Source of the DNA: Berberis thunbergii
Taxonomy: Eukaryota > Streptophyta > Magnoliopsida > Ranunculales > Berberidaceae
NCBI GenBank assembly: GCA_003290165.1
Contig: QNQO01000797.1
Coordinates: 124,001 to 188,000 of the forward strand
Length of the DNA stretch: 64,000 nucleotides
Direction of reading: 5' to 3'
Shown here piece after piece: positions 48,956 to 56,458 of the stretch. The position numbers were made by a program, and so were the translations under genes. Under the pieces are notes generated by a model, which made no database searches, was not told where the DNA came from, and worked only from the letters and a program-made list of their open reading frames with translations. Positions within the stretch are counted from its first letter, which is position 1. Every line of letters starts with the position of its first letter.

Positions 48956-49245
48956 CACTACACCAAAAATGGCCATTAGCAACGGTTTTAAACCGTGGGG
49001 GTAACCCATTGTCACGGCTTAGAGCCGTGGGCTGTAGAGGCGTCGCTAAATCCCTAGTAACGGCTAAAAACCGTGGCATAAATATTAGCAACGGTTTTAT
49101 CTCGAGGACGGTTGATGATTTAGCCACGGTTATAAACCGTTGCAACAATCTTAGCCATGGTTCTAAGCCGTAGCCAGGAGTAGCAACAGCTTAAAACCGT
49201 TGCAAGTATGGCCACGGTTTTAAGCCGTGGCAAAAAAATTTTAAA
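48956..49245 (+). repeat. Left terminus and subterminal repeat array of second CACTA
   Basis: About ten full or half copies of agcaacggttttaaaccgt and close variants (gccacggttttaagccgtgg) in both orientations. In En/Spm-type elements such repeats bind TNPA and are needed for transposition. Confidence 0.92.
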
Positions 49246-50290
49246 ATTTTTTTTTGTCACAATGTTAAGCCAATGCAAATCTACTAACAGTGATGCAATA
49301 CAGACAATGAAGAGAAATTACAGACTGAAGAACTTGTAATTGTAATTCTGAATTGATGATAGTAAATGGAATGGATTATATTCAATAAGAAAGCTAATTC
49401 GAGATAGCTAATCTCCTATAGAGCAAATGCTCAAGTGTACAATTTTCTTACAAATCAAATGAATCCTTTTTTCTCTCTTATGCTCTCTTATTTATAGTAC
49501 TACATTTATTGACAACTAATCTAACATAAATCTTTCCTAAACAACATAGCACTCTGCAACATATAGCAACCGGCTCCCTTTAGTAACAACACTTGTGTTA
49601 GTAATCTGCATTCCATTCATGCACAAAAGAGATGAGAGTGATAATATGAGAGGACAATATTTCCATGATTGATATCTCACACCAGTAATAAGAATTGTTT
49701 TCGTACAAGATGCTTAATTACTCTAAGTATAGGAAGCATTCAGGATACGATCACATAGAAGATATGATATGCAATTTTATGCAATTTAAAATGTTTCTCA
49801 ACAGAATTTCAATAAACTGAACTCAATTTCAGTGTTCACTCAAAGCACTAGAACATAGCAATAAAATTTCAAATTGGGGTGTTCCTAATGTACGTTAGGC
49901 GCATGCCTTGCGCCTAGGCACAAATAGGGTATCACTCCCTCACTGCACCTTTGCACCTTAACCACACTAATACAAGATACAATGAATAATCCAATGATCC
50001 AATAAAAAAAGTTCATGATTGTTTTCCAACTGAATCAGCCACTAGCCTAACAGAATAATGTCATAGTTTAATACAAGTCTACAAGAAAATTTGATCTTTT
50101 TTGCTACATTTGGCATACAAGTCCACGTAAAGTTGCACAAATTAAACATTATGAAATTCAAATATATATTAAATTAGAAATGAATTCTAGCTAACTAGAA
50201 TGAGTTTGGATTATAAAGAGGAGAGAGAGAGATATACATTGGCTTTGATTGCTCATCCCCACTTGAAGACCTTGATCAGCCATAAGAGCT
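49246..50290. other. AT-rich internal CACTA sequence without a recognised exon
   Basis: No coding frame of note and no captured exon I can recognise. A gagaggagagagagag run lies near 50216-50232. Confidence 0.4.
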
Positions 50291-51060
50291 CCTCCACTAA
50301 AGAAAACACCCTGAATTGAAGAGCAAAAAACCAAACTGGAGCCTACTGTAAAAAAAAATGGATTTTGGTTTATCAGATTTTTTACAGTAGCAGATACAAC
50401 AATCCTTACAAACTGAGTGTCCCTGTAGTCGATTAAATCTAGATGCTCCCTTGAATAACGAAAAGAACTCGTAAAATTTCAAGAGAACAATATTACAACT
50501 TTAAAACAAATATTTGTCAAGGATCCAAAAAATTTTACTCTTCTATTAACAAGATAGCAGAAAGCTTTTTAATATTATTGTGATAACCCTTGTGTAATAG
50601 TTTAAGCTTTTAGAGATGATGACAATGTAACTATCCTTGATGATACCTAATGTTATGAATCGTACTGCTCATGTTTTCTATTCAAGTCATTATCTGCCAC
50701 TTGGCTAAAGGGAAACATAAATACTAAAGGGCTTGGTTTCAGCTTAGCAAGAAAACTTGCTTGCACCACAAATATGACTTGCGGCGTGATTGCACTGCTC
50801 CACTCTGAACCCGTTCCCAAAGCCATTCCCTCCCACCCTTGCAAAGCACCAAGATCTCGCTCAAAGAGTTGCTGCAATACAAACTGCAGACCTCCACCAT
50901 GGCTGCATTTTCCACTTCCCGACAGTATGATCCAGCTAAAAATCGACCCCCAAAATAGGTCCTTACTACATCCTAACTCTGTCATTACAAACCGCATCCA
51001 AGAGACCACCAAACACCTCAAAGAAAACTCCAAACATTCATCAAAACATAGCTCGAAACC
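50291..51060 (-). other. Unrecognised possible captured fragment
   Basis: On the minus strand a 126-codon frame (51033-50653) reads LQQLFERDLGALQGWEGMAL and ITPQVIFVVQASFLAKL. A shorter stretch near 50290 reads MADQGLQVGMSNQS. G+C is higher than in the surroundings, as in the captured exons, but neither matches a family I know. Confidence 0.25.
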
Positions 51061-51677
51061 AGATCATTCTCTGTATTTTGTTGGGTATACATCTCTGTTT
51101 TATATACTGAAAAAGCATCCCAAATCCCAAAACTTTACCAAGTAAGAGTATCTCATTGATAAGAACTGAAAACTTGTCATCATAGATTCCTAGCCTCTAA
51201 AGGTATTAACATGTTCAATAAAAAACCATATTATAAAACTGAACAAATTATGAGAAAGTGAACTGTAGAGAATATTTAAAGAAGGGAACCCACATCCAAA
51301 TGGAGAAACATGTAAGATCATGGTTAGAAAAAGTTTATCCCCTTAACTCCAAAGAAAAAATTTATCCCTTTAACTAATAAAAAATATATCTGCAATTAAA
51401 TGACAAAAAACCATAAGCATAATTCAATTAGAACAAAAATAACTGAAATAACCCATTTCATATAAAGTTCATATCTTTCAAGCCCTTGCCTCACTCCATC
51501 TGCTGTAACATTTTTATAGAATGCATCCCATATGTACTACCCAAACCAGTTCAACAAGTCTAGAATCCTAACCATTCAAAAAAATAACTAAGCAAATTTA
51601 TTGAGCAATCATACCAACAATCAAGGTCACCTGGATAGAAGAGTTATCAAAAACATATTTTCTATTTCATTTGCTAC

Positions 51678-51797
51678 CTCTTTTGGATCAGCAAGCACGT
51701 TGACAATGGCTGTGTCAATAGCATCTTGGTTCTCAAGTCTTGAGGCTCTAGCTGCATGCAAGACAATAGTATCTTTGTCCATGTCTCTGTTGAAAAC
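51678..51797 (-). pseudogene. Plasma-membrane H+-ATPase exon fragment
   Basis: A clean 40-codon exon lies between acceptor actgtag (51798) and donor gtagca (51677). It reads VFNRDMDKDTIVLHAARASR then LENQDAIDTAIVNVLADPKE. This is the P-type ATPase region just after the phosphorylation site, matching the plant AHA/PMA consensus DKD-V-L-AARASRLENQDAID. The pump energises the plasma membrane; this piece lacks the catalytic aspartate, ATP-binding loop and membrane helices. No stop or frameshift interrupts it. Confidence 0.9.
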
Positions 51798-54284: not shown

Positions 54285-54821
54285 CTGTACATACAAAACA
54301 AGCATCCATAAGATCACAAAAGAGAGAAAACCATTCAACATGTATATACATATGAAAAAATATGAACAAGAGAATATAGTACATCCCATTGTTCAATTTG
54401 TCCTGATCCATAGATCATAACAAGAAAATCCATTAAAACTTCTTTCATGTATACATTTATAACAAGAGAAACCCATTTCAACTTCTATTGATATACAAGA
54501 CTTGCATCAAAAGAGAATTCTATTTCAACTTCTTCTGACCCTATAAGACTACATCAAAAGAGAAACCCATTTCAACTTCTTGTGACCTATAGTACTAATT
54601 TGGATTTTTCATGTATAACATGTGAACAACAACAGAAAACACTCATTTGAACTTCTTTCAATAAAAAAGAGAGATACCCATTGATCTACAAGATCATAGG
54701 AGAGATGCCCACTGAAATTTTTTTAGAATTTGATAAAATCCAATATCTCTGAGACAAAATCCATAATCACCATGCGTCAAGTAAAAGCAATGCCAGTATC
54801 TGGAAAGCTACTTACACACAA

Positions 54822-55892
54822 CTATTTCAGCACTTTCACTCCCAGAAAACAGGTACCATCAATAAAATGATTCTTAGTAGCCATGCGCCTCTTCTTCACA
54901 GCCTCTGCAGCAATGTCCTTCAAACATCACAAGTTCAATCCAATTACATAAATTAAACAGAAATAAAATGCCACATAAAAAATGACGTTCAACTTGAATA
55001 GGTGACAACTATAAGAGATAAGCACCTTCTTATGTTGCTTTCTGTACATGGCAGTCCATGTAAGCTTCGATGGCTTGAGTCGGTTGTGGAAGTACCTATT
55101 GCATTTTGAGTTTGCAAAGAGGAAAACCTACATTTATGAAATTGTTTAGAGTTTCATATTGTTATGATGCGAACATATTAGAAAACTACATCACTCTTGT
55201 ATTGGGAAACAAATAGTTCATATGGTACCTGTGAATCGGATCCAATAAATCTTATACCCTTTCTAGGGTAAATCTTTTGACCACTAAAACGGCAGAGTTC
55301 AGTTCTGAAGAATAGACAATAAAGAATCATTCAATTCAAAACTTTCTGAAAGTTGCAATCATAAACAAGAGATAAGTACCCCATATCTCACACACAAAAT
55401 TTTATATGGTATGCTCATACAACAAAATATTTGACATTTCTGCGATACATAATGTACACACAGTTTCAAATCCTCCACATCATGTGCATACATAATGTAC
55501 TTGCAATAAAACAAGTCCTATGGTTGAGCCTACTAGTTTCCATGGGACAACAATCTCAGAAAACTAAGATATACATTCTCGAAACAAAACACATAAATCT
55601 CAGAAAACAAGTCATATACCCAATCAAAATGAACCCTAACATCCAATCAGATCTAACAAGCCAAAACCCATGAAAAATAACGAATACCCATTAAGAACAA
55701 TTATGATTTTTCAAACCCCACTTCAGTATAAAACGATTTCATTCAACTCTACATATCAAATCAGATCAGAAACTAGATGATAAATGTTAAAACCAACTAT
55801 AAAACAGAAAACTAACACAACAAAAGAGAACAGTGAGAGATAAAAGGAAAAACCCATATCAAGAATCGAAAATGAACTCACTTGAGAACCAT
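54822..55892 (-). CDS. RPL24-derived chimeric ORF (ribosomal protein L24e N-terminus)
   Basis: Four exons splice in phase: 55892-55882 (ATG, MVLK), 55304-55229 (TELCRFSGQKIYPRKGIRFI), 55127-55026 (VFLFANSKCNRYFHNRLKPS, KLTWTAMYRKQHKK) and 54917-54822 (DIAAEAVKKRRMATK). After RRMATK the reading leaves L24 and ends 15 codons later at TAG 54824-54822. The predicted 94-residue product has the L24e zinc-ribbon fold region. No stop, frameshift or broken splice site is seen in the captured part, and the native promoter seems to be included. The C-terminal half of L24 is replaced. Confidence 0.88.
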
Positions 55893-56240
55893 TGTGGCTA
55901 ATCTTCTCTTCTTTTCTACAGTACTGGATTGAAATCACTTGCAATCTTCCATTAAATCTCTCTGAAGCTCCTCAATCTCTCATCTGCGCCAAACCAGAGG
56001 TCGCAAACTCTAAACTGCGCAAATCTCTCTCTTTTTTTCGCAAACTCTAAACCGTGCAAATCTCTGTCTCTTTTTCGCAAACCCTAAACGAGAGAGAGAG
56101 GTCGAAAACTAAGAGATTCAAACTTCTTTCGCAAACCTAAATCAGCGCCAAATTCGTTTTTCCCCAATTTTTTTCGCCAAAGCGAGAAATCGAGAGCGCG
56201 GAACTCCATCTCCAAATCACTCGTGGCGCACGTGCAAAAC
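55893..56240 (-). promoter_or_regulatory. Captured RPL24 leader and promoter with telo-box
   Basis: Upstream of the RPL24 ATG the DNA is rich in tctctctc/gagagag tracts and contains aaaccctaaa at 56079-56088, with degenerate copies (aaactctaaac) at 56011 and 56042. AAACCCTA telo-boxes mark plant ribosomal-protein and translation-gene promoters. The segment reaches almost to the right subterminal repeats, so the CACTA element seems to have taken the gene's 5' end whole. Confidence 0.6.
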
Positions 56241-56244
56241 TATT

Positions 56245-56458
56245 TTGTTTAGCAACGGTTTTTGGCTGTTGCTAATTATAGCCACGGTTTTTTGCCGTGG
56301 CTAATGCACCCACGGTTTAGAACCGTGGCCAGTCATTTTTATAGCCACGGTTTTAGGCCGTTGGCCACTCTATCCACGATTTTTGGCCGTGGCAAATAAA
56401 CCAACGGTTTAAAATTGTGGCTATCTCAGTGTAGCTAAACAAGCCTTTTGGTGTAGTG
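56245..56458 (-). repeat. Right terminus and subterminal repeat array of second CACTA
   Basis: Five or more copies of agccacggttttttgccgtgg-type palindromes, then the terminal ttttggtgtagtg ending at 56458. The motif family is the same as at the left end, which confirms that both ends belong to one element. Confidence 0.92.

Follow-up and report, generated by a model that had tools for sequence, protein, structure and literature searches.

A high-copy non-autonomous CACTA family of Berberis thunbergii carrying an RPL24 5′ end and host-gene exon pieces on one strand

Introduction

Non-autonomous CACTA elements that carry host-gene DNA are known from plants. The Tpn1 family of Japanese morning glory consists of hundreds of non-autonomous CACTA copies with kept ends and captured genic interiors, and one member has chimeric transcripts (PMC5105172). 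Tgm-Express1 of soybean is a 5.7-kb CACTA element with five unrelated gene pieces whose introns are kept and whose cassette exons are spliced in RNA from the host promoter (PMC1947982). Pack-CACTA and other Pack-TYPE elements of Arabidopsis, rice and maize are non-autonomous elements with terminal inverted repeats (TIRs) that contain host coding DNA, in some cases from more than one locus (PMC8903248), and fusion of neighbouring insertions has been put forward as a model for them (PMC8903248; summarized in PMC13317346). Many CACTA-captured gene pieces were found on wheat 3B, some of them reported to be under purifying selection (PMC4290129). Here, a 64 000-nucleotide stretch of the Berberis thunbergii assembly (contig QNQO01000797.1, C797 below), referred to as the window, was analysed; it contains a non-autonomous CACTA element of 7503 bp at 48956-56458. 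We consider it probable that this element has lost internal sequence and comes from a non-autonomous CACTA family of high copy number, which carries the 5′ part of the ribosomal-protein gene RPL24 at one end with exons of other host genes behind it in the same direction, and which has grown by repeated capture of host DNA and fusion of neighbouring copies.

The kind of element is already known from Tpn1, Tgm-Express1 and Pack-CACTA; the new part is a ribosomal-protein 5′ end present across subtypes together with sense-only cargo. Like Tpn1, the Berberis family has conserved ends and an interior replaced by captured genic DNA, but unlike Tpn1 it keeps the ribosomal-protein 5′ end in the subtypes read and its recognised pieces are all sense; the orientation of the pieces captured by Tpn1 was not found in the parts of the Tpn1 literature examined (PMC5105172). 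With Tgm-Express1 it has in common several unrelated gene pieces with introns kept. Transcripts of Tgm-Express1 begin at the interrupted F3H gene, whereas the Berberis element brings a likely promoter with it and is part of a family with about 1,000 ends. Since the Tgm-Express1 pieces are spliced exons, one direction is suggested there too, which speaks against one-way order being new in itself. The neighbour-fusion proposal for Pack-TYPE elements is matched by a leftover internal terminus in two Berberis elements (C104 and C6382), but most Pack-CACTAs are reported to be of low copy number (PMC8903248), whereas the Berberis family is of high copy number with stacked captures. Gene pieces captured by CACTA elements are found on wheat 3B as in Berberis; unlike some of the wheat captures, the Berberis RPL24 piece is without purifying selection. 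In the portions of the literature searched, we found no test of strand for the pieces that CACTA families capture, nor a large family of this kind in which a ribosomal-protein start is retained at one end and the cargo was tested on both strands.

The questions at issue are the way in which DNA transposons gather exons, and whether these exons face in one direction and for what reason. The many copies of one collecting lineage make both capture by neighbour fusion and promoter-driven loss of antisense pieces testable by counting.

Results

Ends and target site of the element

The element is a CACTA (En/Spm) transposon by its TIRs, which start with CACTA, its 3-bp target-site duplication (TSD), its subterminal repeats and its dispersed copies with the same ends. 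The TIRs of 13 bp (CACTACACCAAAA at 48956-48968, with the exact reverse complement at 56446-56458) agree at 13 of 13 bp at both ends, and the two element ends are the only matches without mismatch to CACTACACCAAAA within the 64 kb. Inside them, a 23-nt palindromic repeat is present 14 times in direct and inverted orientation, with eight copies on the left and six on the right. The features are as follows.

48956..56458, unstranded, non-autonomous CACTA element (exact TIRs, TSD, 1,038 genome matches to the first 30 bp)
48953..48955, unstranded, left target-site duplication aga (sequence)
48956..48968, plus strand, left TIR, 13 bp (sequence match)
48977..49231, unstranded, left subterminal palindromes, eight copies of the 23-nt repeat (repeat search)
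56250..56421, unstranded, right subterminal palindromes, six copies (repeat search)
56446..56458, minus strand, right TIR, 13 bp (sequence match)
56459..56461, unstranded, right target-site duplication aga (sequence)

None of the 116 open reading frames (ORFs) of at least 32 amino acids (aa) on both strands of 49300-56240 matched a transposase family in Pfam. The insertion is present at the identical site on a second contig with 98.9% identity; it is common to C797 and C9054, and its left part is also found on C9053, up to the contig end. The initial annotation had described intact CACTA ends, subterminal palindromes and aga duplication and the lack of a transposase, all of which is borne out here, while its concern that the region might be an assembly of separate contigs is unlikely to apply, because the same-site element is also on the second contig.

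Family size and copies

Genome-wide counts cover the 2.24-Gb assembly. When other copies with the same termini were searched for, as had been suggested, the 30-bp left end gave 1,038 exact matches (518 forward and 520 reverse) and the reversed control gave 0. The number of sites is lower than 1,038, because both haplotypes are partly kept in the assembly and inflate copy counts. Pieces of RPL24, SRS and the H+-ATPase gene were each found at at least 40 loci with 90-100% identity, a number that includes the copy in the window and alleles. For annotation this is a warning: what look like fragments of RPL24, LRP1 and H+-ATPase genes in such a genome are in many cases cargo of a transposon. By their right flanks, 20 RPL24 loci represent 16 distinct sites, with four pairs having the same flanks, and the alignment ran to the right terminus at 56458 in 20 of 20. 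Whole elements were read on C6382, C135 and C104 in addition to the window, and the TSD was exact in two of these four (aga in the window, TAT in C6382).

Immediately beyond the right end of the element that bears RPL24 in L020 is another, related CACTA left end (901-1281) with 81% identity, which could stem from an adjacent insertion or have been added by fusion.

Host-gene pieces in the window element

Pieces of RPL24, SRS/LRP1, RFT1, a plasma-membrane H+-ATPase gene and a raffinose-synthase-like gene follow one another from right to left, all on the minus strand and with introns present.

55893..56240, minus strand, RPL24 5′ flank, putative 5′ untranslated region and promoter (upstream of ATG; within the stretch common to at least 40 copies)
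55882..55892, minus strand, RPL24 exon 1 with ATG (donor GT in 34 of 34 copies)
55229..55304, minus strand, RPL24 exon 2 (Pfam, PDB, splice borders)
55026..55127, minus strand, RPL24 exon 3 (Pfam, PDB, splice borders)
54873..54917, minus strand, first part of RPL24 exon 4, homology ending at about 54873 (PDB, splice borders)
53940..54284, minus strand, SRS/LRP1 last exon, 3′ limit approximate (DUF702 2.2e-23, LRP1 homologues)
53578..53651, minus strand, RFT1 exon, degenerate (assigned by reading; the 4e-4 Rft-1 match is not pinned to one ORF)
52774..52914, minus strand, RFT1 exon with GT/AG borders (assigned by reading; the ORF alone is unseen by Pfam)
51678..51797, minus strand, plasma-membrane H+-ATPase exon (PDB 5ksd; preceding exon present in the relative C135)
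51471..51533, minus strand, raffinose-synthase-like exon piece with a stop just upstream (PF05691 0.0084, under cut-off)

Of RPL24, the cargo holds exons 1-3 and exon 4 as far as its first 45 bp, and each junction has GT/AG; the exons matched plant eL24 in PDB with E 3.1e-43, and about 350 bp upstream of the ATG reach the subterminal repeats. The SRS/LRP1 exon matched Pfam DUF702 (E 2.2e-23), and over about half of its ORF the LRP1 homologues of Nelumbo, Ricinus and Actinidia are 78%, 74% and 81% identical; identity to 120 listed proteins was 57-83%. Its splice acceptor at 54285-54286 is AG in 21 of 25 copies, AT or AA in two and a gap in two. The H+-ATPase exon matched residues 337-383 of PDB 5ksd (E 1.8e-9). 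For the raffinose-synthase-like piece, PF05691 gave E 0.0084 in the window and 7.3e-4 at the equivalent site in C135, both under the 20-bit cut-off, and PDB gave 0.55. The RFT1 evidence is weak on its own: one window ORF matched Pfam Rft-1 with E 4e-4, under the Pfam cut-off, no Rft-1 match was obtained in Pfam when six window ORFs were run singly (0/6), and the RFT1 stretch in C104 gave 0.007, also under the cut-off. About 335 bp present in six loci (L026 3967-4302) and absent at window 53780 resemble the RFT1 start by reading. The element stretches 54310-54872 and 49300-51398 are of unrecognised origin, with a possible exon ending MADQGLQVGMSNQSQ before GT.

As introns are kept, capture would have been from DNA templates. 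The order of the pieces suggests that the single captured promoter could drive a chimeric RNA. The four host genes named in the initial annotation (RPL24, SRS/LRP1, RFT1 and H+-ATPase) are retained, RFT1 with the weak evidence given above, but the count rises to five with the raffinose-synthase-like piece; the same orientation, introns and splice borders that it reported are found, as is its Pack-CACTA-like exon-collecting transposon, in that the element is non-autonomous, has no recognised transposase and holds host-gene pieces on the same strand.

Subtypes and hybrid origin of the window element

The subtypes have in common the RPL24-SRS core and part of RFT1, and differ by swapped interiors; the RPL24 5′ end is constant in those read. 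The C135 element (10.6 kb) carries two H+-ATPase exons, the raffinose-synthase-like piece, a PWI factor and a sulfate transporter, followed by a short RFT1 piece (by reading), SRS and RPL24. In the C104 element (11.1 kb), pieces of an ABC1 kinase, eIF5A, an acyl-CoA dehydrogenase-like gene, a TGA bZIP and a reductase are followed by a longer RFT1 run, SRS and RPL24. The C6382 element (11.9 kb) is 93-96% identical to that of C104 over most of its length and has a β-galactosidase piece within a stretch missing from C104, and further pieces at C7462 (L028) are from an E2 enzyme and from the N-terminal region of an SRS protein.

The left half of the window element is C135-like with a loss of about 720 bp, joined at TGCTC, and further right the alignment changes to C104-like.

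50666..50670, unstranded, microhomology TGCTC at the loss of about 720 bp relative to C135 (alignment)
52480..52486, unstranded, switch from C135-like to C104-like, about 4 bp common (alignment)

The alignment started exactly at 52480 in nine of 18 other SRS loci, some of which are mutual alleles. Long homology at this junction (a 20-bp overlap) was rejected, as the aligned letters have about 4 bp in common. By these alignments, the window element is an internally deleted hybrid of two longer subtypes, joined at microhomologies; its earlier description as complete applies to its ends and not to its interior.

In C104 and C6382 an internal right CACTA terminus of about 25 bp, ending TTTTGGTGTAGTG, is present without subterminal repeats; its neighbours in C104 are the ABC1-kinase pieces on one side and the reductase piece on the other, and in C6382 it is found at the matching place.

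L074 2888-2915 and L030 2797-2824, leftover right CACTA terminus in the type-B elements (sequence)

This terminus looks like a fossil of element fusion and fits fusion of neighbouring insertions. The microhomology junctions would also allow template switching in gap repair.

Strand of the captured pieces

Stop-to-stop ORFs of at least 32 aa were scanned on both strands against Pfam (E<=0.01). The test covered the interiors of the window element, C135 and C104 and ten unmatched stretches of eight further loci, and also took in all 16 listed C6382 ORFs of at least 75 aa; look-alike stretches in L063, L065, L066, L068, L069 and L070 (like L062) and in L027, L036, L040, L046 and L048 (like L026), with the same boundaries or insertion, lay outside the scan. 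No antisense ORF matched Pfam (0 of 224; 58+93+73), whereas the 227 sense ORFs (58+98+71) gave 12 credible families: RPL24, DUF702, Rft-1, raffinose synthase, sulfate transporter, ABC1, PWI, eIF5A, acyl-CoA dehydrogenase, β-galactosidase, E2 and aldose epimerase. Eight of the 12 were above the curated Pfam cut-off. If each family represents one independent capture, the probability that all face one way is 2 x 0.5^8 = 0.008 for eight and 0.0005 for twelve. The H+-ATPase, TGA bZIP and reductase pieces were excluded from the test, having been identified by PDB searches of sense ORFs only. Sense hits to Prominin (0.0016), TPR1-like (0.0054), Trm5_N (0.0037) and Phage_zn_bind_2 (0.0052) were set aside as chance or as overlap with a better match in the same ORF.

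Parent genes and transposases in the genome

RPL24 genes with the C-terminal exons that are missing from the element were located on C959 and C3024 (two each) and on C2958, C492, C3107, C1646, C1400 and C3017; some of these are likely alleles. Dozens of repeats carry a longer RPL24 exon 4 piece (query residues 6-43), many as frames of about 105 aa (C95, C1009, C36 and others), and two of them, C2:508315 and C48:1213764, are 9-10 kb inside a family left end. From the position of these two, an older form of the family is likely to have held more of RPL24 exon 4.

At least 150 CACTA transposase domains are present in the genome. Inspected by eye, none of the best 150 was on the element side of the listed family ends or copies within about 20 kb; two of them, on C45 and C53, are 14-16 kb away on the outer side of family ends.

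Discussion

Other CACTA elements would provide the family with transposase in trans. Host DNA could be captured by joint mobilisation of adjacent elements situated in or close to genes, or through template switching while gaps are repaired. The captured RPL24 promoter would be active and drive RNAs of mixed genes, and pieces or intragenic insertions oriented against this promoter would give antisense RNA to essential host genes and be lost. Loss of antisense captures is our preferred cause of the one-way order, although it commands only about a third of our belief. We put forward tentatively, at a similar level, the wider proposal of a sense-only exon collector led by its promoter, in which, after capture of a ribosomal-protein promoter, only pieces pointing the same way persist, since backward ones would silence essential host genes. 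If this is true, hundreds of copies are one-way, continually re-fused exon arrays that feed spliceable chimeric RNAs to the host, and the strand of captured pieces is a record of selection on antisense RNA.

The family may instead be an ordinary Pack-CACTA family mobilised in trans, with a silent RPL24 promoter and an orientation that results from few captures or from chance, which we regard as rather unlikely. It agrees with the fate of the RPL24 exons. For this analysis, 40 loci were reduced to 34 (one per contig) and then to 25 by removal of nine near-identical rows (four from the same site by flanks, five presumed so by identity), the expected changes were derived from intron and spacer changes, and distinct changes were preferred, as per-copy tallies count common changes repeatedly. 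Among the 25 copies, distinct nonsynonymous, synonymous and stop changes in RPL24 numbered 48, 17 and 6, against 46.9, 16.8 and 5.0 expected; ten copies had a premature stop and three had an indel able to make one. Purifying selection on the RPL24 frame was therefore rejected, the changes being at neutral expectation. The captured RPL24 exons are passengers as protein, drifting neutrally, and a working chimeric protein is unlikely because its RPL24 part is without selection. The RPL24 splice sites were kept in 34 of 34 copies at five of six positions and in 32 of 34 at the sixth, which would be within the range expected from low divergence. Against chance orientation stand the at least eight unrelated families above cut-off, from different subtypes and all sense, with the probabilities given above if the captures were independent.

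Capture coupled to transcription, by repair or template switching from genes transcribed one way, would set the orientation at capture and not by later selection. The microhomology junctions favour it, as do the kept introns, which point to DNA templates. However, the leftover terminus points to neighbour fusion, and nothing in the portions of the literature examined connected the polarity of CACTA repair with the direction of genes; we judge this explanation unlikely.

That the SRS-containing ORF has been kept open for function is very improbable. In its favour, no stop change was seen in the 25 copies, against 4.9 expected (3.1 scaled), the distinct nonsynonymous, synonymous and stop changes being 51, 7 and 0 against 67.3, 20.2 and 4.9 expected (scaled 42.2, 12.7 and 3.1). 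Despite the zero stops, selection on SRS is unsupported, as nonsynonymous changes are not under-represented: they make up 51 of 58 (88%) against 77% expected, with p 0.06 in the direction opposite to constraint. An origin in which a Helitron first collected the exons and CACTA ends enclosed it later is very improbable as well, since, although Helitrons are known collectors of gene fragments (PMC3288121), a crude scan of both strands of the element turned up no Helitron-like 3′ hairpin that ends in CTRRT, a TSD is present and the alignments of the 20 RPL24 loci all reach the CACTA right end.

Returning to the high-copy family grown by capture and fusion, and to the loss of antisense captures as the cause of its order, several points weigh against them. 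No autonomous partner with the CACTACACCAAAAATGGCCATTAGCAACGG end could be tied to the family among the best 150 CACTA transposase domains. The pieces would have been captured from this genome's own genes, but parents were located for RPL24 only. The TSD has a one-base mismatch in C135 (CTT/TTT) and in C104 (GGC/GGG). The Pfam cut-off was not reached by four of the 12 sense families (Rft-1, raffinose synthase, acyl-CoA dehydrogenase and aldose epimerase), and at L067, where the aldose epimerase piece is located, an H+-ATPase piece is present but CACTA ends were not seen. Finally, the captures are possibly non-independent, and one early multi-gene event could have fixed the orientation.

Other features of the window

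A 21-bp look-alike sequence is found at 54779 inside the element. Adjoining the insertion, 56459-56667 (minus strand) holds a zinc-binding reverse-transcriptase-like ORF (PF13966 3.9e-4, under the Pfam cut-off), from which the insertion site is likely to be a remnant of a long interspersed nuclear element (LINE). LINE-like endonuclease and reverse-transcriptase ORFs were recognised by reading at 40734-43745 and 24336-26858. Direct repeats of 1.8 kb at 5860-7645 and 11886-13669 are 98.2% identical, with a gag-like zinc-knuckle ORF between them (10512-11480), and this pair (5860-13669) looks like a long terminal repeat retrotransposon.

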